A DNA stretch of 64,000 nt from an uncultured bacterium (GTDB taxonomy: Bacteria; Cyanobacteriota; Vampirovibrionia; Gastranaerophilales; Gastranaerophilaceae), in assembly GCA_902788575.1 (NCBI GenBank), contig CADAKY010000001.1:62001-126000 (forward strand). Reading direction: 5' to 3'. The translations under genes were made by a program, and so were the position numbers. Under the pieces are notes generated by a model. It saw only the letters and a list, made by a program, of their open reading frames with translations, made no database searches and had not been told where the DNA came from. Below are positions 2,227-61,213 of the stretch, piece by piece. The first letter of the stretch is position 1; the number at the start of each line of letters is the position of its first letter.

Positions 2227-2244
2227 AATGTTAAGTTTTGTAAC
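2227..2244 (-). promoter_or_regulatory. Near-match to HLR1 (RpaB-type) box
   Basis: The minus strand reads GTTACAAAACTTAACATT, which fits (G/T)TTACA(A/T)2 NN (G/T)TTACA(A/T)2 with one mismatch in the second repeat. It lies between the divergent RHH gene and the 719-residue protein gene. Confidence 0.35.
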
Positions 2245-2322: not shown

Positions 2323-4482
2323 ATGTGCATTCCATACTGGCAAGCATTATTAAATACATCCGACTGGGGCATGGCAAATATGCAATGGAATCTCGGCTGG
2401 GAAAAAATGAATTTCTGGTCCGGTCTCAACACAGGTTTTATGAATGCAAGCGGTGCAATGGACTGGATTACAAATCCGCAAGTAGCTCTTTGGCAAGCTT
2501 CTCAAGCAAATAACGGTTGGAATTTTAATAATAGCGGAAGTATTTTCCCGTCATGGCAGAATATCGGAAACGGTTGGAACATGAGCCCGATGAACCCTTG
2601 GGGTAATATGGGCTGGACACCAAGCGGAAATGCGGACGGCGGCAACTCCGGCAAAACAGAAACAACTGCTCAAAAAGAAATAAAGAAAGTAAAATCTGTT
2701 TATGATGCAGTAAAGAAAATTGTTAAAAAGGATGAAAACTTCATAGATAATGATATTTTAGTTGCATTTGAAAAAGCATCATCTGATTATAAAGAAGAAA
2801 CTGATGAAAACGGCAAAACAAAGAAAGTTAAAAAGACAGATGAAGAAAAATTAGCTGATATGAAAGAGGCTATGAAAGCATTTGGTTCTCAAAGATTGAG
2901 AATAGCTCTTCTTGAAGAATGCGGATATCGTACCAAATTGGTTGAAGCGGGATTTGATTTTAAAGCTTCTGATAACACTTTGGGAACAGAAGACAGCAGT
3001 CTCATAAGTGAACTAGATGCTATGTATACAGATGTTAAATCCGGTAACTATGTTAAATTAAACACTGTGGTCGGTGCCATGAAGTCTGATGATGTTCTTC
3101 AATATATCAGCCAATGGAATGAAAAATATAAGACTGACAAAGACAGAAGCATTATTCGTTTGGTAGCTAATAACATGCCATCTAATCCGGGTGCTAACGG
3201 AAGAGAAGGATTTAAGGAAGCGATAAATAAGCTAACTGATAATTTATGTGCTAAGGCTTCCGATTATGAATCATACGAAGGCGTAGCAAAATTAAAGAAA
3301 GAACTTGGAGATAAACAGGCAGAATTGAATAAGGCATTTGCTGATACAAAAACAACTTCATCAACTTTGAAAGCTAAGATGAACGATGTTGCAACAGCTT
3401 TTGAAGCTCTTTATGCAAAAGTAAGAATGCAGGAAGCTGCAGCAATCAGTAAAGAAATTAAAGATAAATATGCTGAAACTATGAATAGTATTGTCGAAGG
3501 TACTATTCCTAATGATATTATAGTTGATGAAACAAAGGCAGATTTGACAAGTGAAGGTCTTAAAGCTCCTGCTGCGGATGAAATTAAAGAACCTAAATAC
3601 AAACAGAATGTTTCAGATAATAATGAAGAAGAACCAGAAGTAAAAACTTGGAATCAGGATGTCAGCAGTACAACAGAAAATAATATACAAAAACTTATAG
3701 ATAGTGGTGTTTTGGAAGAAACAGACAGCACGGATCCGAAAGTTTATTACAGCAGTGAGTACAAACGTTACTACACAATTAAAGGCGGAAAATTATACAG
3801 ATTAAACAATAACGTTAAAGAAGTCACTAAAAACGGTTTTGTGAAACTTAAAGACGGTAAAGAAGTTTCTGTAAAATCAGCAATATCGAATCAACAAGCT
3901 ATTATTGATGCAATGGTAAGAAAAGCTGACGACTCAAAAACAACAGCTTCGGCAATTGCAAACGAAGAAGACGGAGCTTATGATTTGGGATATGAGGTTG
4001 CACAGGATTTAATTGGTTACACAAATAGCGAAGAACTTACGAACGTGAAAAATTCACTTGCCGCTATAAATAAAAATAATGTTCAATCATTCTTAGATGG
4101 ATATTACGCTAATGACGGTGGTGGAAATGGATTATTTTTACAATTAGCATTAGAAACAACTAAGCTTAAAAATAGTGATGTTGTTCCTGTAATGCGTGCT
4201 ATTGTTGATGCCGTACCTGATGATTTGAGAAATACCAAACAATTCAGAACACTGCAAAGAATTTGCAGAATGTATGAGCGCAAAGATGGCAATTCCGATT
4301 TCAAAATGTCTCATGGTGATTTGGGCTGGGGCTGGAACAGAATCTGGGGTATTGATGACTTAGATCAATTTGATGACGCTGTAGAAGCTTTATTCCAATT
4401 AAAAGACAGTGCCGATGAAATTGAAGAAAAAAATAATACAAAAACTGAGGATGAAACTTCGTCAGGAGCAGAAGCATCATAA
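2323..4482 (+). CDS. Large unrecognised protein with Trp/Asn/Gly-rich N-terminus
   Basis: I do not recognise this 719-residue protein. Roughly the first 105 residues are extremely rich in Trp, Asn, Gly and Met (for example WNLGWEKMNFWSG, GNMGWTPSG). A long Lys/Glu/Asp-rich, largely helical region follows, then a short Tyr-rich patch (PKVYYSSEYKRYYTIKGGKLY, about residues 475-495) and a helical C-terminus. A second Trp cluster (GDLGWGWNRIWG) sits near the end. There is no signal peptide or membrane segment. GAGGATAA supports ATG 2323. The Trp-rich ends suggest surface association or self-assembly, but that is a guess. Confidence 0.8.
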   Translation: MCIPYWQALLNTSDWGMANMQWNLGWEKMNFWSGLNTGFMNASGAMDWITNPQVALWQASQANNGWNFNNSGSIFPSWQNIGNGWNMSPMNPWGNMGWTPSGNADGGNSGKTETTAQKEIKKVKSVYDAVKKIVKKDENFIDNDILVAFEKASSDYKEETDENGKTKKVKKTDEEKLADMKEAMKAFGSQRLRIALLEECGYRTKLVEAGFDFKASDNTLGTEDSSLISELDAMYTDVKSGNYVKLNTVVGAMKSDDVLQYISQWNEKYKTDKDRSIIRLVANNMPSNPGANGREGFKEAINKLTDNLCAKASDYESYEGVAKLKKELGDKQAELNKAFADTKTTSSTLKAKMNDVATAFEALYAKVRMQEAAAISKEIKDKYAETMNSIVEGTIPNDIIVDETKADLTSEGLKAPAADEIKEPKYKQNVSDNNEEEPEVKTWNQDVSSTTENNIQKLIDSGVLEETDSTDPKVYYSSEYKRYYTIKGGKLYRLNNNVKEVTKNGFVKLKDGKEVSVKSAISNQQAIIDAMVRKADDSKTTASAIANEEDGAYDLGYEVAQDLIGYTNSEELTNVKNSLAAINKNNVQSFLDGYYANDGGGNGLFLQLALETTKLKNSDVVPVMRAIVDAVPDDLRNTKQFRTLQRICRMYERKDGNSDFKMSHGDLGWGWNRIWGIDDLDQFDDAVEALFQLKDSADEIEEKNNTKTEDETSSGAEAS

Positions 4483-9060: not shown

Positions 9061-9975
9061 ATGTTCAAGCTCGTATGCGGTGCAGGAAATGAAGATGCAG
9101 AAAGCGTAAAAAGGCTTGTTTTTGTATACGCAAAAGCAGGATGTAAGTTTTTTGACATATCAGCCAGAAAAGAAATTCTGAATGCCGCAAAAGAGGGCGC
9201 AAAAAATGCAGGCGCTGCAAATGTAAGATATTGCGTAAGTGTAGGTATAAAAGGTGACCCGCATATTTCCAAGGCTTTTATTAATGAAGAAAAATGCACA
9301 AAATGCGGTAAATGTGTTGATATATGCCCGAACGATGCTGTAAAAACCCCGCCTTTCGTATATCAAGAAAAATGTATTGGGTGTTCAAAGTGTGAAAAAG
9401 TTTGTCCCGAAAATGCAGTAAAAATGAGAGATAAAGACGTAGATATTTCACAAATTTTGCCGGAAATGATTAAAGATGGTGTGAGCGTCATAGAATTGCA
9501 TATTATGGGACACGACGCAGCTGACCTTGAAAAGAAATGGAAAATTATAAACGACTGCAACCCAAAGTACGCATCCATTTGCATTGACAGAGAAAATTTC
9601 GGAAATAAAGAGTGTCTGGACAGGATAAGAAAAATGATTTCAGTAAGAGACCCTTTTACCACAATAGTTCAGGCGGACGGAATCCCGATGAGCGGAGGAG
9701 ACGACAGTTTTAAGACAACTCTGCAGGCGGTGGCAATGGCGGAAATTATTCAGAATGCGAATCTGCCTGTTCTTATCATGATATCAGGAGGGACAAACTC
9801 TAAAACTGCCGCACTTGCAAAACAATGCGGGATTAATTATTGGGGTATCGCAATCGGTTCATGGGCAAGAAAAATTGTTAAAGAATACGTAAATTCAGAT
9901 GATTTCTGGACAAATACCGAAAAACAAGATCGAGCGGTTGAAATTGCAAAAAAACTTATTACTACATCCGTGTAG
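9061..9975 (+). CDS. ldpA: LdpA-like protein with two 4Fe-4S clusters
   Basis: The 304-residue protein has an N-terminal domain (KLVCGAGNEDAESVKRLVF), two ferredoxin-type cluster motifs (C79-C82-C85-C89 and C105-C108-C111-C115) and a C-terminal barrel-like domain (IVQADGIPMSGGDD, ISGGTNSKTAALAKQ, GIAIGSWARK). This order and these motifs match LdpA, a redox-sensing protein of cyanobacteria that affects the circadian period in Synechococcus. In a genome without visible photosynthesis genes it presumably has an older redox or metabolic role. It begins directly after the stop of the FtsL-like gene. Its 3' end overlaps the converging gene by 14 bases. Confidence 0.85.
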   Translation: MFKLVCGAGNEDAESVKRLVFVYAKAGCKFFDISARKEILNAAKEGAKNAGAANVRYCVSVGIKGDPHISKAFINEEKCTKCGKCVDICPNDAVKTPPFVYQEKCIGCSKCEKVCPENAVKMRDKDVDISQILPEMIKDGVSVIELHIMGHDAADLEKKWKIINDCNPKYASICIDRENFGNKECLDRIRKMISVRDPFTTIVQADGIPMSGGDDSFKTTLQAVAMAEIIQNANLPVLIMISGGTNSKTAALAKQCGINYWGIAIGSWARKIVKEYVNSDDFWTNTEKQDRAVEIAKKLITTSV

Positions 9976-10468
9976 CTTGCAGTATTGTACTATCTTCAAC
10001 AGGCTGAATATCAATTTTTGAAAGATTTCTGGTTGCTTTTGCAAATTTGAATGCCCCCGGAGGAGTTGTTAAAGAAAGCGAAATTCCAAAACCCGTAAGC
10101 AAGCCTGCAACAATACCTGCAACTGAGGATAACACTTTCTTTGTCGTTCCGGCTTTTCGCATCATAAGAAGCGGGGCTGCTGCACCAATACAACCACACG
10201 CACCGATTGCCAGTCTGGATAAATTCTTTCTTCTCTTCAAGTCCTCAGGCTTTGAATTTTTTGCAACATAATCATGAATCTTTGGCGCTGTACTCATAAT
10301 ATCAATATATGACTTTTCAAAAGTATCGACATCTTCTTTTGCAACACTCATTTTTCCGGCTTCCTTACCTTCAGAATCTATAACTCTGTATACAACACGA
10401 CCGTCACTTCCCTGAGAAAGACGCTGAATATTTCCGTAAGGATTTGCTCCGCTTACTGCATTCACCAT
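9962..10468 (-). CDS. Unrecognised small membrane protein
   Basis: The 168-residue protein has two hydrophobic, Gly/Ala-rich segments (about 84-102 and 112-133), separated by a basic loop (RKAGTTKK). The N-terminal region of about 80 residues is soluble (NPYGNIQRLSQGSDGRVVYRV). I do not recognise the family. AAGGTGA lies before the ATG on the minus strand. The 3' end overlaps ldpA by 14 bases in convergent orientation. Confidence 0.75.
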   Translation of the reverse strand: MVNAVSGANPYGNIQRLSQGSDGRVVYRVIDSEGKEAGKMSVAKEDVDTFEKSYIDIMSTAPKIHDYVAKNSKPEDLKRRKNLSRLAIGACGCIGAAAPLLMMRKAGTTKKVLSSVAGIVAGLLTGFGISLSLTTPPGAFKFAKATRNLSKIDIQPVEDSTILQATRM

Positions 10469-10706: not shown

Positions 10707-10794
10707 AAAACAAAAAGCCGCAAATCGTTGCGGCATTAACTCGTTAGATAAAGGAGTGGAGGAGAAAATAAAGAAAAGAGATTATATATGTATA
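10707..10794 (-). ncRNA. Candidate small RNA with anti-Shine-Dalgarno segment
   Basis: The minus strand has a promoter (next entry) with an expected start near 10794. An 88-base stretch without a convincing reading frame follows. It ends in an intrinsic terminator: GCCGCAA/TTGCGGC stem (10734-10717) followed by TTTTTGTTTT. The central part, 10782-10751, is almost pure C/U and contains TCTCCTCCACTCCTT, the complement of strong ribosome binding sites. Promoter, size, C/U-rich seed and terminator fit a trans-acting sRNA that blocks translation. No expression evidence is available. Confidence 0.5.
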
Positions 10795-10800
10795 TACCAC

Positions 10801-10828
10801 ATTATATACTTTTTATAACACATGTCAT
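10801..10828 (-). promoter_or_regulatory. Promoter of the candidate small RNA
   Basis: On the minus strand, ATGACA (10828-10823) and a perfect TATAAT (10806-10801) are separated by 16 bases. The HLR1-type box lies eight bases further upstream. Confidence 0.55.
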
Positions 10829-10836
10829 TTGATATT

Positions 10837-10854
10837 GTTACAAAAATTTACAAA
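10837..10854 (+). promoter_or_regulatory. Perfect HLR1 (RpaB-type) box between dapB and the candidate sRNA
   Basis: GTTACAAAAATTTACAAA fits every position of the cyanobacterial HLR1 consensus (G/T)TTACA(A/T)2 NN (G/T)TTACA(A/T)2. For dapB it would lie at about -68 to -51, where RpaB usually activates. It also lies upstream of the -35 box of the candidate sRNA on the other strand. The rest of this 453-base gap (10469-10921) holds promoters and the sRNA but no visible gene. Confidence 0.6.
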
Positions 10855-10868
10855 ATAGGGTAAAAATG

Positions 10869-10898
10869 TTGTTGTTGCAAGATTTTTTGATGTATAAT
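10869..10898 (+). promoter_or_regulatory. Promoter of dapB
   Basis: TTGTTG (10869-10874) and TATAAT (10893-10898) are separated by 18 bases. The predicted transcript start near 10905 leaves a short leader carrying GAGGAGG. Confidence 0.6.
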
Positions 10899-10921: not shown

Positions 10922-11668
10922 ATGATAAATGTGGCAGTTTGCGGTGCGAACGGAAAAATGGGGCAGCAGGTTATAAAAACGGTTAATGATGCTGAAGACA
11001 TGACTGTTGTTGCAAAAATTGATATCAATAACGGCGAATTTGCAACCATAAAGGATGCAAAAGATTCTGTTAATATTGATATTCTTGTAGATTTTACCCA
11101 GCCAAAGTCTATATATGAAAATGCTTTATATTGTTTATCAAATGGCATAAATATTGTGATTGGGACAACAGGTTTAACGGATGAACAAATTAATGAACTA
11201 AAAAAGCTGTCAGAAAGCAATAAATTGGGATGTTTAATTGCTCCAAACTTTTCTACCGGCGCGGTTTTGATGATGAAATTTGCACAAATGGCTGCAAAGT
11301 ATTTTAATAATGCTGAAATTATTGAACTTCATCATAATCAGAAGAAGGATGCGCCGTCCGGAACTGCCGTTAAAACAGCACAGATGATGGCGGAAGCAAA
11401 CAACGAGTTTACAACTGGCAATTGTGCAGAAGTCGAAACAATTCAGGGCGCAAGAGGAGCAAATTCTTATAACAATATCCACATTCATTCCGTCAGAATG
11501 CCGGGGTTTATGGCATCACAGGAAGTCATATTCGGCTCAAACGGTCAAACTTTAAAAATCAGACATGATTCCACTGACCGCGAATGTTATATGCCGGGGG
11601 TGCTTTTAGGGATAAGGCATATTGCAGAAAATAAAAAATTTATATACGGACTTGATAATATAATGTAA
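10922..11668 (+). CDS. dapB: 4-hydroxy-tetrahydrodipicolinate reductase
   Basis: DapB reduces the DapA product with NAD(P)H in the diaminopimelate/lysine pathway. The 248-residue protein opens with the nucleotide-binding VAVCGANGKMG and carries the catalytic signature ELHHNQKKDAPSGTA, where the second His and Lys act in catalysis. Frames open at TTG 10907 and ATG 10916, but GAGGAGG at 10909-10915 sits six bases before ATG 10922, which also gives the family N-terminus. asd follows 46 bases downstream, so the two are probably one operon. Confidence 0.97.
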   Translation: MINVAVCGANGKMGQQVIKTVNDAEDMTVVAKIDINNGEFATIKDAKDSVNIDILVDFTQPKSIYENALYCLSNGINIVIGTTGLTDEQINELKKLSESNKLGCLIAPNFSTGAVLMMKFAQMAAKYFNNAEIIELHHNQKKDAPSGTAVKTAQMMAEANNEFTTGNCAEVETIQGARGANSYNNIHIHSVRMPGFMASQEVIFGSNGQTLKIRHDSTDRECYMPGVLLGIRHIAENKKFIYGLDNIM

Positions 11669-12980: not shown

Positions 12981-13673
12981 CTAATAATCTTCTCTTCCTC
13001 TGGATTTGAGGTATTCACGGATTTGATTGAGGGAGAATTGGATAATTCTTGTGATTCTGGATGGAGAAAGACCTATCATGTTTGCAATATCTTTTGCCTG
13101 CATGTTTCTGTAAAAACGATACTCAACGACTGTTCTTTCTTTTTGGGGCAATTTTGCGATAGCTTGTTTGATAAGTTTTGACATTTCAATAATTTCTGCC
13201 TGTTCATCCGGCATGGCAGAAGGGTCTTTGATAAAGTCGAATGGTGACGCATTATCTGTAGCTGCAGCTGCAAGACCATCTATGGATAAAATTGTTTCAT
13301 AAACAGCTTCTCTGACTTTTGTCGGTGATATTGCAAACCCCATATCCTCGCTGTTTTCTTGTGAAGAGTCAGATGTATAGTTGTCAGTACTTCCTTCTTC
13401 TTCTCCGTCACCCTTATGTTTCAGGGTATACCATTTATAACGGTGTCTGAGTTCGTTACGGATAGCCCATTTTACGGCAGTTCCTATATAAGCATCATTA
13501 TAACGGGCAAGTTGTTCTTCTGTTTTATCTTTGATAAGTGATTGTATGGCAAGAATACCTATGCTAACCAGCTCTTCATACTCAATCATGTGGTTAGGCA
13601 TACGTCTGTGTTCTACACGTGCAATTTTTTGTACAATACCTACGTATTGGTTTAATAAAGTCTTTGTATCCAT
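12981..13673 (-). CDS. Small sigma-70 family factor (paralog of 37811-38455)
   Basis: The 230-residue protein has a sigma region 2 (YEELVSIGILAIQSLI, AVKWAIRNELRHRYKWY, about residues 31-81). A variable acidic linker follows, then a region 4 helix-turn-helix near the C-terminus (LPQKERTVVEYRFYRNMQAKDIANMIGLSPSRITRII). Regions 1 and 3 are absent or reduced, as in FliA/SigB/SigF-type alternative sigma factors. The second copy at 37811 shares the unusual KWA-RNE-R-RYKWY block. One of the pair may recognise the sigma-28-like flagellin promoter at 36163. Confidence 0.88.
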   Translation of the reverse strand: MDTKTLLNQYVGIVQKIARVEHRRMPNHMIEYEELVSIGILAIQSLIKDKTEEQLARYNDAYIGTAVKWAIRNELRHRYKWYTLKHKGDGEEEGSTDNYTSDSSQENSEDMGFAISPTKVREAVYETILSIDGLAAAATDNASPFDFIKDPSAMPDEQAEIIEMSKLIKQAIAKLPQKERTVVEYRFYRNMQAKDIANMIGLSPSRITRIIQFSLNQIREYLKSRGREDY

Positions 13674-15151: not shown

Positions 15152-15169
15152 TATGTAAATTTTTGTAAC
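15152..15169 (-). promoter_or_regulatory. Perfect HLR1 (RpaB-type) box between prepilin and flagellin-like genes
   Basis: The minus strand reads GTTACAAAAATTTACATA, fitting all consensus positions. It lies at about -84 to -67 of the prepilin promoter and about 190 bases upstream of the divergent flagellin-like gene, so it could act on either. Confidence 0.6.
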
Positions 15170-15356
15170 AATTTTTTATTTTAGCGTTATAAAATGTTAA
15201 ACATGTGGAATATACAACATGTAAGGTAATATAGTAGTAATGGATTGCTATACCTTAAAAGAAATTTAGAATAACACATGAGAGTTTTTGATTAAGAATA
15301 AAACTTCGGCCCAATCTTAACTTGAACAATTTACAAACCTTAGAAAGGAATCAAAT

Positions 15357-16286
15357 ATGGAAGCTATTAACACAAGTCACGCATCTGCAATGCTGCAAAA
15401 AACTTTAACAGATGCTCTTGACAAAATTTGTTCCCAATCTTCAAAGCAGGTAAAACCTAACGGGTTTAATGTTGCTGATGATATGGGTGCTTGTTCAATG
15501 GCAGATGGTATGATGATGGGTGGAATCAATCTTGATTCTATAATGGGAAAAGTGGTTAATTTTAATGATATGCTGGGAACTGCGCAGGATACATTATCAC
15601 TGATGCGCGCTCAGGGACAGGCTTTATTGGATTTGATTAACAGAGGGCACGAAGAAGGGCACAGTCAGGAAGAAATTGATGCAATGAATGCGGAAGCTGC
15701 ATCAAGAGTTTCTGAAATTAACAAATTGTTTGAGGGATGCAATTTTGACGGAATAAATCCGTTAAAACAAGTTTTCGGAGTAGAAGTTCCGGAATGGCAA
15801 AGTGTTGTAGAACAGGTTTCCGGAGGGGAAGTAAGCCCGAAAGAAGCTGCAACAAATGCTATTACAAATGTTCTTGCGGATATTGATTTTAATTTTGATA
15901 TGTCTGCAGATTTTGGCGGAAGTTCTCTGAACATGATAGCTTCTGCAAATATTAAAATCGGTTTTACAGATGACGGAGCTTTGCAAATCGCGGTTGATGC
16001 AAGTATGGATTTTGATTTATCAGGTGTTGTTGAAAAAGGTGTTCAATCTGATGATTCTTATGACTTGGTAAATAACTTCCTGAACTTGCTTGACGGAAAA
16101 CAGAATGATGCTTCAGCGGCATCCAAGTTCCTGAACACGATTTTGGGATTTATAGGAATGTCTACAGATGACTTTGTTACGGAAGACGGTTCTTCTTCCG
16201 TGTTAAAGGGAAAAATACTTCAACAGGCAACCATAACTCTGGATAATCCCGGACAAATGCCCAATATAGCAATTAATATGTTGTAA
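15357..16286 (+). CDS. Degenerate flagellin-like protein
   Basis: The 309-residue protein keeps flagellin-style ends: N-terminal AINTSHASAMLQKTL, a helix ending FNDMLGTAQDTLSLMRAQG and SRVSEINKLFEGCNFDGINPL, and a C-terminal GKILQQATITLDNPGQMPN. Compare ILQQSTATLLSTANQMPS in the true flagellin at 34974. The usual GLRINSAKDDAAG block is lost and replaced by a Met-rich DMGACSMADGMMMGG stretch. The middle is acidic and unrelated. AAAGGAA supports ATG 15357. It may be a minor filament component, cap or junction protein, or an exported protein using the flagellar route; the role is inferred. Confidence 0.7.
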   Translation: MEAINTSHASAMLQKTLTDALDKICSQSSKQVKPNGFNVADDMGACSMADGMMMGGINLDSIMGKVVNFNDMLGTAQDTLSLMRAQGQALLDLINRGHEEGHSQEEIDAMNAEAASRVSEINKLFEGCNFDGINPLKQVFGVEVPEWQSVVEQVSGGEVSPKEAATNAITNVLADIDFNFDMSADFGGSSLNMIASANIKIGFTDDGALQIAVDASMDFDLSGVVEKGVQSDDSYDLVNNFLNLLDGKQNDASAASKFLNTILGFIGMSTDDFVTEDGSSSVLKGKILQQATITLDNPGQMPNIAINML

Positions 16287-18940: not shown

Positions 18941-21178
18941 TTATTCATCACGAGTCATAGAAAGCATAATTTCCTGCGGAATATATGTATTTTTGATTCC
19001 GGAATCAGTATTTGCAATAAAAAATTCTATTGTTTCACCTTTTTTAATATCTAATTTATCAAAAGGTATGCTTATATCTATAACTTCATCGCTTACAACT
19101 CTTATTCCTTCGGGATTATCAAGAGTCCACATGTTAGGATGCAGTACTGTCGCAAGTCTTGGCGGATACAAGGTGTCTTTAATAAGCGTGAGTGTGAGTT
19201 CATGTTCAAATTTTTCCGTTAAAATAGGGTAAGGATTATCTGTTTTGCTTATTAATCTGATATGCGCTCTGTCCAATAGTTTTGATGCATTTCTTAAATA
19301 AATGTAAAACTGGTTAATTCTTTCAACAAAGCTTTTATCTTCCGTATTTTTATTAACGTGAAGTCTGAAATACATATTAGATTGGTCGCATCCAAAATCG
19401 ATCTTATCAACTTTTTTATTTTCTCTATACACAGGCCCGTCAAGTAAACTCATAGAACCTGCATTACTCCAGTCATCAGAGCTGGAATTGAGTCCGTCCA
19501 TTTTAGGAGATATTTGACGCTTAGGAAGTTTAAACGGAACTTCTATTGTGTTAATTATTGTTTTGTCCAAATACTCCGGTACAGGTATATCAAGCAATTG
19601 ATAGACGTGTTTCAGACGTTCTCTGAACATATAGTCAAATAGAAAATCCTGACCTGAATTGTTTGGTTCACCGTACCACCAGAACCAGTCACTGCCCTGC
19701 GCAATTAAAAATTCGCGTTTTGCAATCGGTATATTGGGATTTTTTCTGTTTGCACTGATATAAGCTTCCAGATCATCTTTTGCTTTTTTTAAATATGCCC
19801 ACGCTTTATTTTTTTCCGGATCTCCAATCCAAAATCTAAATGTTTTATCAATACAAGAACCTGAATAAATCTTTTTCAGTGACTTTTTGTGTTTATCTGT
19901 TTCAATATAGTCACTGATTAGAACTGTTTCCAGCGTGTTATCATTTTCTATAAGATTATAAATATTTTCAAGAAATTCAATTCCGTCATTTTCATAATTT
20001 TCCCAGCAATTTTCACAATCAGAAGCAATCGTGAGCAAATGACTGTCATCCGGAGAAACCAGCAGTTTATTCTGGATTGTTTTAATTTTTTCATACAAAT
20101 CGCCTGCTGCCATTTTTGCATTTATGCCGGCATATTCAAAGTTAATTAAATTAGGTATTGAACGGTCACGGAAAATTATATCTATTTCTGATTTTTTTGT
20201 TTGATAATTATAAACCTTTAACAAATGATACGGGTCATTAAGATTTCCTTTGAAATCTCTTACAAAATTGAAGTTTATTGAGTTTGACAGAATTCCTTCG
20301 TCTGAAATTGTCCATTTGATACCTTCTCTTGCAAACATACCCAGTGTTTTGGGGCCGATACATAATTCAGGAGGCCACATTCCTTTTGGACGCACTCCAA
20401 AAACTTCTTCTATTCTATCCAGTCCGCTTCTTATTTGAACTCTTGCATCATCGAGCATTCCCAGTGATGACGGTAATCCTTCGGATGTCAAACCTGTTTT
20501 TGCTGAAGATTTTATATCAACCAAAATAGGAATAATTGTATGATAGTAAGGGCTTGTCGTAATTTCGATTCTGCCTGTTTGAATGTATTTTTTATAAGTA
20601 GGAACAATCTCTCGGATTATTTTTCTCTGTATATCAAGAATTTCTATTCTGTCTTCTCTTGTGTATCCGTTTTTCTTGTCCCACAAATCTTTAAGGCGAG
20701 GATATCTGTCGTAATGTACAGGATCAATCCATACAAGATTAAAAACTGCCATTAAATCCGAATATTCCTGGAGTGTAAACATATTTATATCTGCAACATC
20801 AGTTGAGAAACGTTTTTGATACAAATCTCTGTATGTAGGATTTTTGTATACCATAGTTTCAAACTTTGTCATAAAAAAGTTGTTTATGATAAATGATTTT
20901 TCTTCATCCGTAAGGTTATAAACGTCCGCAACGCTTAGTTCAGAATGAATATCATGGCAGTCATTGTTCTGATAATCTATTATGGAATCCAAAAGTGCCG
21001 GTACTATATCAAAATTTAATTTCAGAGACGGAAATTTTTCCAAAAAAAGTACCATATCCAGATAATCCTTAACTGCGTGAAGTCTAACCCACGGCATAAG
21101 ATAAGTACCATCCAACTCATAAACCGGCTGATGCATGTGCCAGTAAATAGCAAGTGAGAGTTTTTTCTGATTTTCCAT
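18941..21178 (-). CDS. Glycoside hydrolase family 57 alpha-glucan enzyme
   Basis: The 745-residue enzyme is of the GH57 amylase/4-alpha-glucanotransferase/amylopullulanase type. Seen are the N-terminal HMHQPVY, the catalytic nucleophile Glu271 in MWPPELCIG and the acid-base Asp387 in ASDCENCWENY (the usual motif begins with Asp-Gly). After the barrel, a C-terminal beta domain (about 560-745, DFGCDQSNMYFRLHV-like) resembles the glucodextranase-type accessory domain. There is no signal peptide, so it likely works on cytoplasmic glycogen or maltodextrin. The frame is open to TTG 21208; I chose ATG 21178 because it starts at the family N-terminus. Neither has a clear ribosome binding site. Confidence 0.88.
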   Translation of the reverse strand: MENQKKLSLAIYWHMHQPVYELDGTYLMPWVRLHAVKDYLDMVLFLEKFPSLKLNFDIVPALLDSIIDYQNNDCHDIHSELSVADVYNLTDEEKSFIINNFFMTKFETMVYKNPTYRDLYQKRFSTDVADINMFTLQEYSDLMAVFNLVWIDPVHYDRYPRLKDLWDKKNGYTREDRIEILDIQRKIIREIVPTYKKYIQTGRIEITTSPYYHTIIPILVDIKSSAKTGLTSEGLPSSLGMLDDARVQIRSGLDRIEEVFGVRPKGMWPPELCIGPKTLGMFAREGIKWTISDEGILSNSINFNFVRDFKGNLNDPYHLLKVYNYQTKKSEIDIIFRDRSIPNLINFEYAGINAKMAAGDLYEKIKTIQNKLLVSPDDSHLLTIASDCENCWENYENDGIEFLENIYNLIENDNTLETVLISDYIETDKHKKSLKKIYSGSCIDKTFRFWIGDPEKNKAWAYLKKAKDDLEAYISANRKNPNIPIAKREFLIAQGSDWFWWYGEPNNSGQDFLFDYMFRERLKHVYQLLDIPVPEYLDKTIINTIEVPFKLPKRQISPKMDGLNSSSDDWSNAGSMSLLDGPVYRENKKVDKIDFGCDQSNMYFRLHVNKNTEDKSFVERINQFYIYLRNASKLLDRAHIRLISKTDNPYPILTEKFEHELTLTLIKDTLYPPRLATVLHPNMWTLDNPEGIRVVSDEVIDISIPFDKLDIKKGETIEFFIANTDSGIKNTYIPQEIMLSMTRDE

Positions 21179-21277
21179 TACATAGGAGTATACATAAAAT
21201 TCAGGCAATATGCAAGTGATAAAACATCTTGCAAATGTTAGAATCTTTAAAGAGTGTTATGCTTATTAAGGTTTAAA

Positions 21278-21295
21278 AACGTAAATTTTTGTAAC
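21278..21295 (-). promoter_or_regulatory. Near-match to HLR1 (RpaB-type) box upstream of the GH57 gene
   Basis: The minus strand reads GTTACAAAAATTTACGTT. The first repeat is perfect; the second is TTTACG instead of TTTACA, with a non-consensus end. The 16-base core GTAAATTTTTGTAACA is identical to the three perfect sites. It lies 100-117 bases before the GH57 start. Confidence 0.45.
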
Positions 21296-21297
21296 AT

Positions 21298-21882
21298 TTA
21301 AGGGTTTTTGTATCTTATATAAACATAAGCGTTAAAATCCAAAGATCCGTAGCCAACCATTACATAGTCTTCGTTATAAGGAATGAGTTTTACAAAGTCG
21401 ATGCTGTCGGATTTGAAATCATCTTTTGTTTCGTTTGCTTTAACCTTACCTTTAAAATAGTGCGCCTGATAAAAAGAAAGATATATTTCGCCGTTTTTAT
21501 CTTTTTCGCCAAAGACATTATAATATCCTGTATCAAGAAGTTCATCGCCAATATAAAGCTGAACCGGTATGTTTAACAATCGTCCTTCGTCTTTATCGGT
21601 TTTTTTTAGCGGGTCTTGCGCCTGAATTTCACTTAATGGGTCAAGCGTATTATGGAGACTTGTACCTCCGCCCGAAAATTTTTTGATTTTCTTTTTTCTT
21701 TGTTTTGCTTCTTTTTTCTTTTGTTTGCTTTGCAGAGTATCTATTGCTTTTTCAAATTCGTCATTGGTTATAGCCTTCTGTTCACCCCACAGATTCCCGG
21801 AAAAGTCTGACCAGTCTTCTGCGAAAGAAGGTATTTGAGCCATACAATATGCTATTAAAACAAAAATAAAAACTCGTCTCAT
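21298..21882 (-). CDS. Exported protein of unknown function
   Basis: The 194-residue protein has a signal peptide (RRVFIFVLIAYCMAQIPSFA, cut before EDW). A Lys-rich charged region follows (about 53-68, KQKKKEAKQRKKKIKK), then a C-terminal beta-rich domain (about 100-194; VQLYIGDELLDTGYYNVFG, VMVGYGSLDFNAYVYIRY). The family is not recognised. No ribosome binding site is visible before ATG 21882. It may be a periplasmic envelope protein. Confidence 0.72.
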   Translation of the reverse strand: MRRVFIFVLIAYCMAQIPSFAEDWSDFSGNLWGEQKAITNDEFEKAIDTLQSKQKKKEAKQRKKKIKKFSGGGTSLHNTLDPLSEIQAQDPLKKTDKDEGRLLNIPVQLYIGDELLDTGYYNVFGEKDKNGEIYLSFYQAHYFKGKVKANETKDDFKSDSIDFVKLIPYNEDYVMVGYGSLDFNAYVYIRYKNP

Positions 21883-34973: not shown

Positions 34974-36116
34974 CTATATCAGGTTCAAAGCAATAGAAGG
35001 CATTTGGTTAGCCGTTGATAACAGAGTTGCTGTAGACTGTTGTAATATCTGATACTTGATGTAATCAGAAGAAACTTGTGCTACATCAGCGTCTTTAATA
35101 GTAGAGTTAGCCTCTGTTAAGTTTGCTCTTTGAACATCTGTTGAATCAATAGCGGATTCAAGTCTGTTCATGTATGCACCGATTTTTGTACATCTTAGTG
35201 ATATATTATCAATAGCATGATCAATGAATGTGATAAATTCACGTGCAGAGGAGTCGTTTCTGTAGATTGCAATACACATATTTGTAATCGAAACAGTCTT
35301 TCCGTCATCAGAGTCGTTTAATGTAGCATCTCCATCTGCAACCGCTGTTATTGTGCCGTTTTCTGCCATTGCAGCCGCAAGTGCCGAATTAAACCATTGA
35401 TCAAGATATTTTATACCGTCCGGCTGGTTTGGGTCCGGTTTAGGACTGCCATCCGGATTCAGGTCTCTTGCTCTGTATTTATAACCTCTTGCTTGCGCTA
35501 CTGCTTCTGTTGTTGCAGATTTGAAATCCAAATAACCCGGTCTGTTTGTTGTTGCATTAGCTTCTGTTCTGAAACCAAAGATAACAGTTGATTTTGCACT
35601 GTCAAATAAGAATGCATCCATTTTGATGACACATCTTTGATCTGAATATAATCCGACTTGCAGATTTATATCAGTTTGTCTTGAACCATCAAGCAAGTGA
35701 GTATCATTAAAGTCTGTAATGTCACATAAACGGTTAATTTCATCCATTCTTTGAACAACTTCCAAACCAAGAGCATTCAAAGAAGCTGAACCGTAAGTTC
35801 CGTTTGCTGCCTGCATGGTCAAGTCACGAATTCTTTGTAAGTAATCATTGATAATATCAAGAACACCTTCCTGAGTTGTAAGCATGTCTAAACCCATTTG
35901 AGAGTTCTGTTCAATGATGTTGTAGCCGTTAATTTTTGCTTCCATACCGGCTGAAACGGCGTATCCTGCTGCATCATCTTTTGCAGAATTAATTCTGAAG
36001 CCGGTAGACAACCTTTCCATCATCGTGTTCATACCTTTAGTTGCTGTTTTAAGGTACTTTTGGCACGTCAACGATGCTAGATTGGTGTTGATTGTTAGTG
36101 CTGCTGTTGCTGCCAT
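34974..36116 (-). CDS. fliC: Flagellin
   Basis: The 380-residue filament protein has fully conserved ends: TINTNLASLTCQKYL, MERLSTGFRINSAKDDAAGYAVS, LTMQAANGTYG and MDEINRLCDITDFNDTHLLDG. The C-terminal helix is DADVAQVSSDYIKYQILQQS followed by QMPSIALNLI. The central D2/D3-like region (about 170-290) is short and variable. A sigma-28-type promoter lies upstream and a hairpin terminator downstream, so it is a single-gene transcript. No other flagellar structural genes are in the window except a degenerate paralog at 15357. Confidence 0.95.
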   Translation of the reverse strand: MAATAALTINTNLASLTCQKYLKTATKGMNTMMERLSTGFRINSAKDDAAGYAVSAGMEAKINGYNIIEQNSQMGLDMLTTQEGVLDIINDYLQRIRDLTMQAANGTYGSASLNALGLEVVQRMDEINRLCDITDFNDTHLLDGSRQTDINLQVGLYSDQRCVIKMDAFLFDSAKSTVIFGFRTEANATTNRPGYLDFKSATTEAVAQARGYKYRARDLNPDGSPKPDPNQPDGIKYLDQWFNSALAAAMAENGTITAVADGDATLNDSDDGKTVSITNMCIAIYRNDSSAREFITFIDHAIDNISLRCTKIGAYMNRLESAIDSTDVQRANLTEANSTIKDADVAQVSSDYIKYQILQQSTATLLSTANQMPSIALNLI

Positions 36117-36162: not shown

Positions 36163-36189
36163 TAACGGCACAAATTTTTAAAACTTTAC
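36163..36189 (-). promoter_or_regulatory. Sigma-28 (FliA)-type promoter of flagellin
   Basis: On the minus strand, TAAA (36189-36186), exactly 15 bases, then GCCGTTAA (36170-36163) matches the FliA consensus TAAA-N15-GCCGATAA except for one base. It lies 47 bases before the flagellin ATG. The rest of the 286-base gap upstream of it is AT-rich and shows no gene. Confidence 0.8.
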
Positions 36190-36402: not shown

Positions 36403-37827
36403 CTAATTGCCCTTATAAGTTAAATTGGGCTGTCTTGCAGCAAGGGTTTCATCTACGCGTTTAATTGGAGTTGTTTGTGGAGATTTTAACACCTCTTCCG
36501 GATTTTCTTCGATTTCATGCGCTATTTTAAGCATTGTATCAATAAATCCGTCCAGAACTTCTTTTGATTCTGATTCTGTCGGTTCAATCATAATTGCTTC
36601 ATGCACAATAAGCGGAAAATAGACTGTCGGAGGATGGCAATTAGAATCCATAAGTCTTTTTGCAATGCCTAAAGTCGAAACTCCCTGATGATGCTGTTTT
36701 TCTCCGGATAAGACAAATTCATGCATACAAGGCTCATCATACGGCAAGTCGTATGTTCCTTTTAGTTTTTCTTTTATATAATTGGCGTTTAAGACGGCAT
36801 CTGCGCTGGCAAGTTTTAAATTTTTTCCCATCATTAATATATATGCATACGCTCTTACCAAAACTCCGAAATTTCCGTAAAAACCGCGAACTTTACCGAT
36901 AGACTGAGGTATATTATATTGTCTGATATATTTATTCCCATCAAATTCAACTATTGGTGACGGCAATAAATCCTTTAATTTTTCTGTTACACAAACAGGG
37001 CCTGCTCCGGGACCGCCTCCGCCATGAGGAGTTGAGAAAGTTTTGTGCAAATTAAGGTGAACAACATCAAATCCCATTAATTTTGGATTTGTCCAGCCCA
37101 TAATCGCATTAAAGTTTGCACCGTCATAATACAGAAGTGAGCCGTTGTCGTGCATAAGTTTTGAAATTTCCAAAACTTTTTCTTCAAAAATACCTAATGT
37201 ATTAGGATTCGTCATCATAATAGCAGCAACATCTTTATCTAAAAGTGATTTTAATGCTTCTGTATCAACTTGCCCTTTTTCATTTGATTTAACTTCAATA
37301 ATTTCAAATCCGCACATTTTTGCACTCGCAGGGTTTGTACCATGCGCTGAATCAGGAACGATAACTTTTTTTCTGTTAGTTTCACCTTTTGTTTCAAAAT
37401 ATTTTTTGACAATCATCATGCCTGTTAATTCACCGTGCGCACCTGCTGCAGGCTGAAGTGTAACGGCATCCATGCCGGTTAGTTGTTTAAGCGTTTCCTG
37501 TAATTTGTACATCAATTCCAGCGCACCTTGTGAATCTTCATCTGACTGCAGTGGATGCAAGTTGCAGAATCCTTCTAAAGATGCTAAAAATTCATTGACC
37601 TTAGGATTATATTTCATTGTGCAAGAACCCAAAGGATAAAACCCTTTTTCAATACAGAAATTTCTGTCTGAGAGTTCTTTATAGTGTCTCATAACTTCCA
37701 GTTCGCTTAATTGAGGAAGTCCGATTGAATCTTTCCTTAATAATTCTCTCGGAAAAAACTGACCTAATTCACACTCCCCAATACTAACACCATCTACACC
37801 ATTACTTTTTTCAAATATTGTCTTCAT
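36403..37827 (-). CDS. gcvPB: Glycine dehydrogenase (decarboxylating) subunit 2
   Basis: This is the PLP-binding subunit of the two-subunit P-protein of the glycine cleavage system, which decarboxylates glycine and loads the aminomethyl group on GcvH. The 474-residue protein has FYPLGSCTMKYNP, LQPAAGAHGE, SAHGTNPAS and the PLP lysine in LNLHKTFSTPHGGGGPG. AGGAAGAAG precedes ATG 37827. The start overlaps the 3' end of the upstream sigma factor by 17 bases, an unusual pairing. gcvPA, gcvT and gcvH are not in the window. Confidence 0.95.
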   Translation of the reverse strand: MKTIFEKSNGVDGVSIGECELGQFFPRELLRKDSIGLPQLSELEVMRHYKELSDRNFCIEKGFYPLGSCTMKYNPKVNEFLASLEGFCNLHPLQSDEDSQGALELMYKLQETLKQLTGMDAVTLQPAAGAHGELTGMMIVKKYFETKGETNRKKVIVPDSAHGTNPASAKMCGFEIIEVKSNEKGQVDTEALKSLLDKDVAAIMMTNPNTLGIFEEKVLEISKLMHDNGSLLYYDGANFNAIMGWTNPKLMGFDVVHLNLHKTFSTPHGGGGPGAGPVCVTEKLKDLLPSPIVEFDGNKYIRQYNIPQSIGKVRGFYGNFGVLVRAYAYILMMGKNLKLASADAVLNANYIKEKLKGTYDLPYDEPCMHEFVLSGEKQHHQGVSTLGIAKRLMDSNCHPPTVYFPLIVHEAIMIEPTESESKEVLDGFIDTMLKIAHEIEENPEEVLKSPQTTPIKRVDETLAARQPNLTYKGN

Positions 37828-38455
37828 TTACTTCTTCCTGCTTTAAAAGCTCTTTTTTAACTTTATCTAATGCGTTTTGAATAATTCTTGAAATCCTTGA
37901 TTGTGATATGTTGAATTCTACGGCAATGTCTTTTAGCTTTTTATCATAAAAATACTTTGCTTCTATTAATTCCTGTTCCCTCTGAGAAAGTTTTTTCATA
38001 ACTTCTTTTATTCTGTTTTTAAGTTCTACTATTTCGGCTTTTTCTTCCGGATTTCTTCTTAAATCTTTAATTTGTGTTGGATTTTCAGCTTCCGCAAGTT
38101 CATCTATTGAGAGAATTGTTTTGTAAACGGCATCTTTTATCTGTTCTTTTTCATCAACAGAATCGTTTTTCATAACATACCATTTGTATCTTCTGCGCAT
38201 TTCATTTCTTAATGCCCATTTTATAGCTTTTGTCAGGTATGCAGTATTAAAAATTTCTGCAGATTTTGAATTTTGAATAAGATAATAAACCGTGTAATTT
38301 GCAAGAGCAATAACTTCCGATAATTCAATAAGCCCAAGTGTCGAAAACTTTTTGTATTCTACCTTGGAAACTGTTTCAATAATTTCTTTGTATTGCGCAA
38401 GCTTAGCTCTGTCAGCCCTCTCCTTGCTAATTGTATTTATGTCCTTCATACTCAT
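37811..38455 (-). CDS. Small sigma-70 family factor (paralog of 12981-13673)
   Basis: The 214-residue protein has region 2 (LIELSEVIALANYTVYYLI, AIKWALRNEMRRRYKWY), a short linker and region 4 (LSQREQELIEAKYFYDKKLKDIAVEFNISQSRISRIIQ). The frame opens at 38506, but AGGTAAAATC before ATG 38455 supports the shorter start. The shared KWA-RNE-R-RYKWY block and a common DAVYKTILSIDEL/EAVYETILSIDGL segment identify it as a paralog of the 13-kb factor. gcvPB overlaps its end. The target genes are unknown. Confidence 0.86.
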   Translation of the reverse strand: MSMKDINTISKERADRAKLAQYKEIIETVSKVEYKKFSTLGLIELSEVIALANYTVYYLIQNSKSAEIFNTAYLTKAIKWALRNEMRRRYKWYVMKNDSVDEKEQIKDAVYKTILSIDELAEAENPTQIKDLRRNPEEKAEIVELKNRIKEVMKKLSQREQELIEAKYFYDKKLKDIAVEFNISQSRISRIIQNALDKVKKELLKQEEVNEDNI

Positions 38456-38500
38456 GATTTTACCTAAAATACTGCTGAAATGCAAGATTAAGTGAAAATT

Positions 38501-38529
38501 TTGCACGTAATAGTTATTTATGATATAAT
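38501..38529 (+). promoter_or_regulatory. Promoter of the transketolase-ftsEX operon
   Basis: TTGCAC (38501-38506) and TATAAT (38524-38529) have an ideal 17-base spacer, 20 bases before the ATG at 38549. It lies in the divergent gap with the sigma gene. Confidence 0.75.
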
Positions 38530-44731: not shown

Positions 44732-44749
44732 TTTGTAAATTTTTGTAAC
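44732..44749 (-). promoter_or_regulatory. Perfect HLR1 (RpaB-type) box between the PLP and EF-hand genes
   Basis: The minus strand reads GTTACAAAAATTTACAAA, identical over all 18 bases to the site at 10837. It lies at about -65 to -48 of the EF-hand gene promoter and about -105 to -88 of the PLP gene promoter. Confidence 0.6.
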
Positions 44750-44761
44750 AAAATAAGCAAT

Positions 44762-44789
44762 TTGTAATTCTTTGAAGTTTTTATATAAT
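44762..44789 (+). promoter_or_regulatory. Promoter of the EF-hand protein gene
   Basis: TTGTAA (44762-44767) and TATAAT (44784-44789) are separated by 16 bases, 19 bases before the ATG. Confidence 0.6.
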
Positions 44790-44808
44790 TGTGAAGTGTG
44801 GAGGTTCC

Positions 44809-45456
44809 ATGTTTGAAGTAAGTCAAAATATTGCAAAAATTGATGGTAAATTTGAAACAAAAAATGTAACAAACCCTTCTGAACAGTACGGAAGGAATGC
44901 TGTTGATAATTTTTATTCTTATGCAGAAAAGCCTATTACCGAAGATAACTTTAATACTGCGCCAATTCTTGATTTTGGCATAAGTCCGCAGGCTTCGGAT
45001 AATAATATAAAAAAGCTGGATAAATTCTTAAAAGAGAACGATGATTATTTAAACGCTCTTCCGCCTCTGGAATTTGAATATCGTTATATGCCAAATGTTC
45101 AAAACGGCAAAATTGATAAGGCGGCATTAATGGGAGCTGCAAATGAAGAAATGATGAGGCGTCCTGAAATGAGTGTTGAAGAAATGGATGCTCATTTTGC
45201 ACCAAACAGTAATTATACTTCCAAGGCTCTTGATATAAACGGTGACGGAAAAATTACGAATGCGGAATACAGTACAAGTATTCTTGCTGCTGATATGTTG
45301 AGTAAATCCGATAACCCGAATCCTGAAAATGTAGACGGAACAATAAATTCTAAAGGTATGAATGCAGTGCTTGCTTATGCTAAGAAAAGTAATGCAGCCG
45401 CAGCTGCTCAAATGTATTCAAAAATTTATAACAGTTATAATCTCTCAGACAAGTAG
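44809..45456 (+). CDS. Single EF-hand protein
   Basis: The 215-residue protein has one canonical calcium-binding loop, DINGDGKITNAE (residues 142-153). The rest is a mixed Asn/Lys/Glu-rich sequence with no signal peptide or membrane helix. The frame opens at GTG 44791, but GGAGGT supports ATG 44809. It resembles the 1283 gene only in the EF-hand. Its promoter carries an HLR1-type box. The function is unknown. Confidence 0.78.
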   Translation: MFEVSQNIAKIDGKFETKNVTNPSEQYGRNAVDNFYSYAEKPITEDNFNTAPILDFGISPQASDNNIKKLDKFLKENDDYLNALPPLEFEYRYMPNVQNGKIDKAALMGAANEEMMRRPEMSVEEMDAHFAPNSNYTSKALDINGDGKITNAEYSTSILAADMLSKSDNPNPENVDGTINSKGMNAVLAYAKKSNAAAAAQMYSKIYNSYNLSDK

Positions 45457-59788: not shown

Positions 59789-61213
59789 ATGAAGAAATTA
59801 TTGACACTGGCTATATTAGTATCTTTTGCGGGAGTGAATAGTGTTTATGCGGCAAAATCAGTTAAAACAAATGAAGCACTTTTGAATGCCGGAACAGAAC
59901 AGAATGTAAAAAAATATAAAAAATATTATTTAAAAACAGAAAAAGTGAAACCTGTTAAGAATAAATATGAATATGTTAATCTCGCATGGTGGGCAGGTTT
60001 TAATGATGAATACTTAAATGATTATATAGTTCGTGCAATTGAGAATAATAAAGATTTAAAAATGGCAACACTTGCTATAGAAGAATATTACCAGAATGTC
60101 ATAATGCAAAGAGCATCCGAGTATCCGGCTGTATATGCGGGACTTTTGCCGGCTTTTGGGAAACTGAATACAATGAGTACAAAATCTTCAACGTTATTCG
60201 GGCTTCCGATAATCGCAAATTATGAATTGGATATCTTCGGTAAAAATCATAACAAAACCACTGCAGTAAGAAAATTGTATGAAGCTTCCATTCTTGATGA
60301 ACAGGCGGCATATATTTCAATCGCATCGGCGGTAGGAAATGTTTATGTAAACATTGTCAGAATGGACGCGATGATTGATTTGCAGGAGGACATTGTAAAA
60401 CTGAGAAAAGAAATTGATGAAATTATGTCAATTTCAAATGCGGAAGGGATTGTGTCCACCTCCGATTTAGTTAAGGCAAACAAGGCTTATATAGCAGGCG
60501 TTGCGGATTTGACAGATTTGAAGAAAGAACGAACAAAACTTCTTCATCAGCTTGCAGTTTTAATTGGTGACAGCCCAAACAATATAGAAGAATATAAACG
60601 TATTGATTATAAAACACTTGCTTTTTCCGGAAATATACCGGAAAGCATTGATTCTGATATCATAATGAAACGTCCTGATTACTTAAAAGCGGAAAAAATG
60701 CTTGAAAAGGCAGGTATAGATGTTCGTATTGCAAGAAAAGAAATGCTCCCGAGCTTAAGTCTCGGCGGTGGAATGTTTTTTAATAACAGACACTTGGAAA
60801 GCTTGTTTACAACAAAAGGAATGTTGTGGGGTTTGGGCGGACAAATTGTACAGCCTTTGTTTCTTGGCGGAGTCTTGAAAGCTCAGTTGAAAGCTAAAAA
60901 GATCGCGTATGAAAGAAGTTTAAAAAATTATGAAAAGGTTAATCTAACTTCTATGCAAGAGGTTAATGATTCGTTAGTATCCGTTAATATGGACAGGGAA
61001 AAACTTGCTAAACAGCGTTCTATACAAGAACTTGAAGAAAAAGATTTTACGCTTACAAAGGCGAAATATAATGAAGGAGTTATTTCAAAGCTTGATTTGG
61101 ACCAGCAGGAAGAAAATTTGCTGACGGTCAATAAGATGGTATATTCAACCAATTTTGACTGTATGGTTGATTATATCAATTTCTATAAAGCTGTTGCCGC
61201 TCAAAAAGTTTAG
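59789..61213 (+). CDS. TolC-like outer-membrane efflux protein
   Basis: The 474-residue protein has a signal peptide (KKLLTLAILVSFAGVNSVYA) and the OEP/NodT-type architecture: two long helical repeats and beta segments. Typical motifs are LAWWAGFNDEYLNDYI, LPIIANYELDIFGKNHN, the repeat start MKRPDYLKAEKMLEKAGIDV and LDLDQQEENLLTVNKMVY. It forms the outer-membrane duct for the adaptor at 58202. The frame opens at 59720, inside the operator; AGAGG before ATG 59789 decides the start. The stop overlaps nagA by four bases in convergent orientation. Confidence 0.92.
   Translation: MKKLLTLAILVSFAGVNSVYAAKSVKTNEALLNAGTEQNVKKYKKYYLKTEKVKPVKNKYEYVNLAWWAGFNDEYLNDYIVRAIENNKDLKMATLAIEEYYQNVIMQRASEYPAVYAGLLPAFGKLNTMSTKSSTLFGLPIIANYELDIFGKNHNKTTAVRKLYEASILDEQAAYISIASAVGNVYVNIVRMDAMIDLQEDIVKLRKEIDEIMSISNAEGIVSTSDLVKANKAYIAGVADLTDLKKERTKLLHQLAVLIGDSPNNIEEYKRIDYKTLAFSGNIPESIDSDIIMKRPDYLKAEKMLEKAGIDVRIARKEMLPSLSLGGGMFFNNRHLESLFTTKGMLWGLGGQIVQPLFLGGVLKAQLKAKKIAYERSLKNYEKVNLTSMQEVNDSLVSVNMDREKLAKQRSIQELEEKDFTLTKAKYNEGVISKLDLDQQEENLLTVNKMVYSTNFDCMVDYINFYKAVAAQKV

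Follow-up and report, generated by a model that had tools for sequence, protein, structure and literature searches.

An HLR1-type box facing the promoter of a putative small RNA gene in an uncultured gut bacterium of the Gastranaerophilaceae

HLR1-type boxes and the closest described systems

As far as is known, all photosynthetic cyanobacteria have the OmpR-family regulator RpaB, which holds a central place in them. Its operator, HLR1, has the consensus KTTACAWW-N2-KTTACAWW and activates transcription when placed between -66 and -45 (PMC13421787). Homologs of RpaA, RpaB and NblS have been reported in the lineage studied here (PMC3787301, PMC4040986), and the RpaB orthologs of this non-photosynthetic sister lineage, noted since 2013, were suggested to possibly serve another function (PMC3787301), so the presence of these orthologs in the group is already known. 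Three other systems invite comparison: the WalR/YycF box of Firmicutes, TGTWAH-N5-TGTWAH (PMC9210968); the small RNA Yfr1, in which a short, conserved, single-stranded motif around UCCU can pair with mRNAs and is flanked by two stem-loops (PMC6778093); and the flagellar-sigma-dependent small RNAs of E. coli, which are derived from UTRs and read by sigma-28 (PMC10578931).

The window, a 64,000-nucleotide stretch of contig CADAKY010000001.1 (assembly GCA_902788575.1), was searched by pattern for HLR1. The sequence at 10837-10854, GTTACAAAAATTTACAAA, fits the consensus at each position, as had been claimed in an earlier note on this DNA. That note also counted three perfect and two near-perfect copies, and these were recovered, the exact ones at 10837, 15152 and 44732 and the one-mismatch ones at 2227 and 21278 (Table 1). 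All five are intergenic, as stated there, but a third one-mismatch copy, at 59903, lies inside a long ORF. Four of the copies share the 16-mer GTAAATTTTTGTAACA, again as described. The further claim that the copy number is far above chance is borne out by 300 dinucleotide-preserving shuffles of the window, which held a mean of 0.017 exact sites and never three, and in which the 16-mer did not occur at all. No gene lies in the usual orientation relative to the 21278 copy.

Table 1. Positions of the HLR1-type boxes and associated features in the window
Feature	Positions	Strand	Remarks
One-mismatch box	2227..2244	+	reads AATGTTAAGTTTTGTAAC on +; upstream of 719-aa ORF 2323-4482
Putative small RNA gene, ~75-80 nt	10708..10790	-	predicted 5' end; invariant core 10780-10747
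Predicted intrinsic terminator stem of the small RNA	10734-10717	-
Class B promoter, GTTATAAAA-N8-ATGTGG	10797..10819	-	17 nt downstream of box; one of 7 genome-wide matches
HLR1-type box facing the small RNA promoter	10837..10854	-	reads TTTGTAAATTTTTGTAAC on minus strand; exact consensus
TATAAT, -10 of divergent dapB promoter	10893..10898	+	from sequence
dapB, divergent neighbour	10922..11668	+	TIGR00036, 255.6 bits (cut-off 122)
HLR1-type box facing a class B promoter	15152..15169	+	reads TATGTAAATTTTTGTAAC on +; exact match
Class B promoter faced by the 15152 box	15186-15210	+	promoter pattern match
309-aa gene 3' of the 15152 box	15357..16286	+	no Pfam or NCBIfam family
One-mismatch box	21278..21295	-	between 21298-21882 (-) and GH57 gene 18941-21208 (-)
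HLR1-type box	44732..44749	+	reads TTTGTAAATTTTTGTAAC on +; exact match
TATAAT 34 nt past the 44732 box	44784-44789	+	from sequence context
Gene 3' of the 44732 box, no assigned function	44791..45456	+	likely ATG at 44809

The sequences, counts, spacings, conservation and presence of RpaB reported here were established computationally; genome-wide statements come from pattern searches with reversed controls, and from the stretches around the sites, in an assembly of 1.73 Mb in 36 contigs that is 88% complete. The genome-wide search proposed in the earlier note found the motif strongly enriched and intergenic: the exact pattern occurs 62 times and its reverse not once, the counts with up to one mismatch are 126 and 44, and only three of the 62 exact sites fall inside ORFs of at least 150 aa.

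Placement of the boxes relative to promoters

When written WWTGTAAM-NN-WWTGTAAM, the boxes are oriented towards promoters. A sigma-28 promoter (TAAAGTTT-N11/12-GCCG) follows 18 of the 62, at a distance of exactly 17 nt (16 sites) or 27 nt (two sites). Counted from the sigma-28 promoters with an 11-nt spacer, a box with up to two mismatches stands at offset 17 in 19 of 26, at 27 in five and at 28 in one (some promoters being counted twice), and at no other offset between 0 and 69. A second promoter pattern, class B (GTTAYNAAA-N8-ATGTGG), matches at seven places in the genome and, reversed, at none, and all seven are preceded by a box at 16-17 nt; two of them stand before flagellins, as identified by Pfam, and a third flagellin-like gene (L081) follows a weaker variant. 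A third group of TTTATA type, recognised after the fact, comprises 11 sites with ACTTTATA at 37-39 nt from the box. The promoter enrichment for which the earlier note had proposed a check is found as a fixed distance before sigma-28 and class B promoters.

Relative to the inferred start, the box of all three groups occupies about -68 to -51, near the activating range of -66 to -45 described for HLR1 (PMC13421787), and this placement, as read from the predicted promoters, is the geometry of a class-I activator. The activating position upstream of the promoter core, the 18-bp consensus and the orthologous regulator are what these boxes share with the RpaB-HLR1 system of Synechocystis 6803 and S. 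elongatus 7942 (PMC13421787). They differ from it in being locked at one distance to alternative-sigma promoters, and in that no repressing class, with boxes overlapping the promoter, was identified here. Since the repeat is always found upstream of the promoter -35 region, it might be thought a structural part of the promoter, UP-like or an extended alternative-sigma element, that works without a separate regulator. This is highly improbable, because a strict 18-bp direct repeat is common to several promoter types and shifts in 10-bp steps (6, 16-17 and 27 nt). Steps of 10 bp are needed where an activator contacts RNA polymerase from one face of the DNA. An activator-bound operator is the reading that we follow here, and it would serve promoters of several sigma classes: sigma-28, class B (flagellins and the small RNA) and TTTATA-type.

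Two diverged FliA/WhiG-like sigma factors are encoded in the window, at 12981-13673 (-) and 37811-38506 (-), both below the curated family cut-off, and are candidate sigma factors for the class B promoters; sigma-like region-4 matches number about ten in the 1.7 Mb of the genome. Not all flagellins belong to the box regulon, as the flagellin gene at 34974-36116 (-), with Flagellin_N at 35682-36092, has a sigma-28 promoter at 36166-36188 without an HLR1 box.

Targets that could be annotated are flagellins, a lytic transglycosylase further downstream of one site, and other enzymes, while most are lineage-specific proteins with no Pfam matches and no assigned function. The suggestion that the boxes control cell-wall and surface genes is accordingly upheld for the flagellins and the single transglycosylase, but most targets are unknowns. 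Compared with the cyanobacterial regulon, the targets here are flagellins, sigma-28 genes, a small RNA and lineage-specific proteins instead of photosynthesis genes, none of which appeared among the annotated genes downstream of the boxes. This lowers the case for the same regulon, not that for the same operator system.

Several recurrent features were seen around the sites. Several proteins downstream of a sigma-28 promoter and a box (L014, L017, L074 and L162) have a common N-terminus resembling MGMxASQARLLxLTxR and belong to no Pfam family; they may represent a lineage-specific, possibly exported family. Downstream of two class B sites (L005 and L008) are almost identical sequences of about 110 nt with no clear ORF, which could be either a second non-coding RNA or a repeated leader. 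At two other loci (L022 and L076) an exact HLR1 lies 160-220 nt upstream of frames that by eye resemble ribosomal protein S10 and RpoB.

The minus-strand small RNA gene and its divergent neighbour dapB

The box at 10837 faces, on the minus strand, a promoter of class B, not of the sigma-28 pattern TAAAGTTT-N11-GCCGATAA, and behind this promoter lies a short conserved block that ends in a predicted terminator. Its locus was compared across 21 DapB loci of the genus, in which DapB is 73-100% identical. Eighteen of these loci have the RNA block, and the 34-base core CTCTTTTCTTTATTTTCTCCTCCACTCCTTTATC is identical in all 18. Within the family, 19 of 191 genomes, from five genera, have the 27-nt 3' part of the core with at most one mismatch. 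Most RNA loci of the other four genera keep the promoter together with a box or box-like repeat at 6, 16-18 or 27 nt (some of these spacings by eye), and dapB was not found in their fetched flanks (about 1.5 kb per side, less near contig ends). The terminator stem carries changes on both sides that preserve pairing at two positions, and this terminal hairpin is the only conserved structure in the consensus fold. At least five species have a box whose distal half is degenerate; there, one half-site or weaker binding may suffice, or loss of control may be under way.

The gene at 9962-10468 (-) is on the same strand, some 250 nt past the terminator, and the conserved block could in principle be its 5' leader or an attenuator. 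That is improbable in view of the strong terminator that follows the block, the separate sigma-70-like promoter at 10519-10490, and the fact that the genes flanking the RNA differ in other genera. The block is better read as a putative small RNA, previously undescribed, with an almost unchanging core. At the gathering score Rfam gave no match for it (and only a tRNA for the window), the best match below threshold being MicC with 24.9 bits against 90.

Two stretches of the pyrimidine-rich core, CUCCUCC and another CUCC, are complementary to Shine-Dalgarno sequences, and the RNA likely acts by base pairing with ribosome-binding sites, through which it would probably repress translation of its target mRNAs. 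A target prediction over 523 start regions, with uncalibrated energies, gave as tentative candidates, on which nothing here is built, a response-regulator-like gene at L062 and a LuxR-type gene at L019, the promoter of the latter also having a box. There is some likeness to Yfr1 in the UCCU-containing motif and its capacity for pairing, but the RNA described here has a longer invariant core, a single conserved hairpin (the terminator) where Yfr1 has two stem-loops, and no Rfam match at the gathering score. The core itself presumably differs from the Yfr1 motif. With the sigma-28-dependent small RNAs of E. coli it has in common a tie to a flagellar transcription programme, whereas it is free-standing and has a class B promoter with an HLR1 box. 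It may form part of a motility and surface programme.

The earlier note had assigned the box to dapB, at -68 to -51 of a good promoter. The arithmetic is correct in this genome, where the box does stand at that distance from the TATAAT upstream of dapB, but the -35 element is poor (TTGTTG at best) and the spacing is not kept in relatives, where the box and the dapB -10 are 38, 30 or 35, 112, 21, 21, 20, 42 and 21 nt apart. The distance to the RNA promoter is 16-17, or one helical turn off. Three species of the genus have dapB loci that lack both box and RNA, and in one species box and RNA are together inverted relative to dapB. The variable dapB spacing, the boxless dapB loci, the inversion and the dapB-free RNA loci show that the box goes with the RNA and not with dapB: in presence, orientation and spacing it co-varies with the minus-strand gene, and the claim that it controls dapB is not supported. 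What stands is the activating position, but as one belonging to the minus-strand class B promoter.

On the grounds of orientation, spacing and synteny dapB was rejected as the target. Activation of dapB, alone or jointly with the RNA, has in its favour the matching distance in this genome and the usual neighbourhood of box, RNA and dapB in the genus (g1). We regard it as quite unlikely, given that the box is oriented relative to dapB opposite to the usual, that its distance from the dapB -10 ranges from 20 to 112, that there are dapB loci without it and one with box and RNA inverted, and that in other genera the RNA is located elsewhere.

The box is probably an HLR1-type operator, a class-I site bound by RpaB that activates the promoter of the minus-strand small RNA, with dapB in this genus being only a divergent neighbour. 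The RpaB ortholog would most likely bind it head-to-tail and, from about -68 to -51, at a fixed distance and helical phase from the promoter, would activate class B transcription of a small RNA ending at an intrinsic terminator. That RpaB binds and activates, that the RNA is transcribed and what it targets are inferred from the arrangement of the sequence. Points against this reading are the degenerate distal half-boxes of some species and the lack of an NblS match among the kinases scanned.

The candidate regulator and the distribution of boxes across the phylum

There are three OmpR-family regulators in the genome (L049, L050 and L051). One of them, L049 (G000:C13), is RpaB by the curated model NF045944 (355.8 bits, cut-off 330), so the RpaB ortholog that the earlier note had called for is present. 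But for one S/A change, its recognition helix, DTRVVDVHISRLRxKLE, matches those of 12 RpaB proteins from other parts of the phylum, and the helix of the other two regulators differs. Of 244 genomes of the phylum, 232 have an RpaB above the cut-off; so does one of 14 control genomes, presumably the single cyanobacterium of that set, Synechococcus elongatus. The protein most likely to bind the box is RpaB. OmpR-family regulators bind similar direct repeats, and with three in this genome the box might instead be bound by L050 or L051. This is unlikely, as only L049 is RpaB by the curated model and has the RpaB recognition helix, and the exact motif is enriched elsewhere too in a phylum where RpaB is near-universal.

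Separately, on G000:C4 (L050 and L238) an OmpR-family regulator gene is closely followed by one for a membrane histidine kinase, both proteins being below the curated cut-offs of the models listed. Of the ten HisKA matches in this genome, which is 88% complete, six were scanned, and none reached the 1000-bit cut-off of the NblS (Hik33) model; a lack of this kinase would set the genome apart from the cyanobacterial system.

The WalR/YycF system (PMC9210968) is alike in having an OmpR-family regulator and a TGTAA direct repeat, and the YycF model gives 218.8 bits on the RpaB of this genome, which is however below the YycF cut-off of 340. The motif has the 4-base gap of HLR1, and hence a 10-bp period, against 5 bases in the WalR box. 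A WalR identity was rejected on the gap: 25 sigma-28 promoters have 17 TGTAAM pairs between them, each with a gap of 4 and none with 5.

Exact sites averaged 51.7 per genome in the source genus (reversed control, 2.1) and 60 in a second genus, g15 (control, 7). The remaining 98 genomes of the family averaged 18.5 (control, 2.6), and 42 genomes picked by hand from other parts of the phylum averaged 9.1 (control, 1.0). HLR1 is therefore enriched on both sides of the phylum, and the large regulon seen here is a lineage-specific expansion of boxes. It was considered whether a high box number simply follows from having flagella, and this was not supported: outside g1 and g15, genera with flagellins average 13.5 boxes and those without average 19.6.

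The earlier note had proposed that the RpaB regulon predates photosynthesis. Enrichment of the motif on both sides of the phylum, together with the orthology of RpaB, supports an old RpaB-HLR1 pairing, and to that extent the proposal is plausible, while the expansion is specific to this lineage and the proposal remains indirect. A more elaborate and distinctly tentative scenario is that in the common ancestor of Melainabacteria and Cyanobacteria RpaB-HLR1 was already a class-I co-activator, independent of promoter class, of motility and surface genes and small RNAs, that it was later recruited to photosynthesis, and that two genera of the family expanded it to 40-70 sites coupled to alternative-sigma promoters. 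In cyanobacteria the switch controls photosynthesis; with dozens of copies in an apparently non-photosynthetic gut bacterium, it may show what its role was before photosynthesis.

No earlier report of an HLR1 regulon in this group, or of the small RNA, was found in the open-access literature, which is weak evidence of novelty. The RpaB orthologs of the non-photosynthetic sister lineage thereby gain a concrete, testable regulon, with a fixed operator geometry, targets and a candidate ancestral role, and to this is added a putative small RNA family, its anti-Shine-Dalgarno core unusually invariant, in bacteria of the gut that are mostly uncultured. The combination of box and sigma-28 promoter pattern occurs, among the GTDB matches listed, on contigs assigned to Gastranaerophilales, to Melainabacteria and to unspecific gut bacteria, and on two with Clostridia labels.
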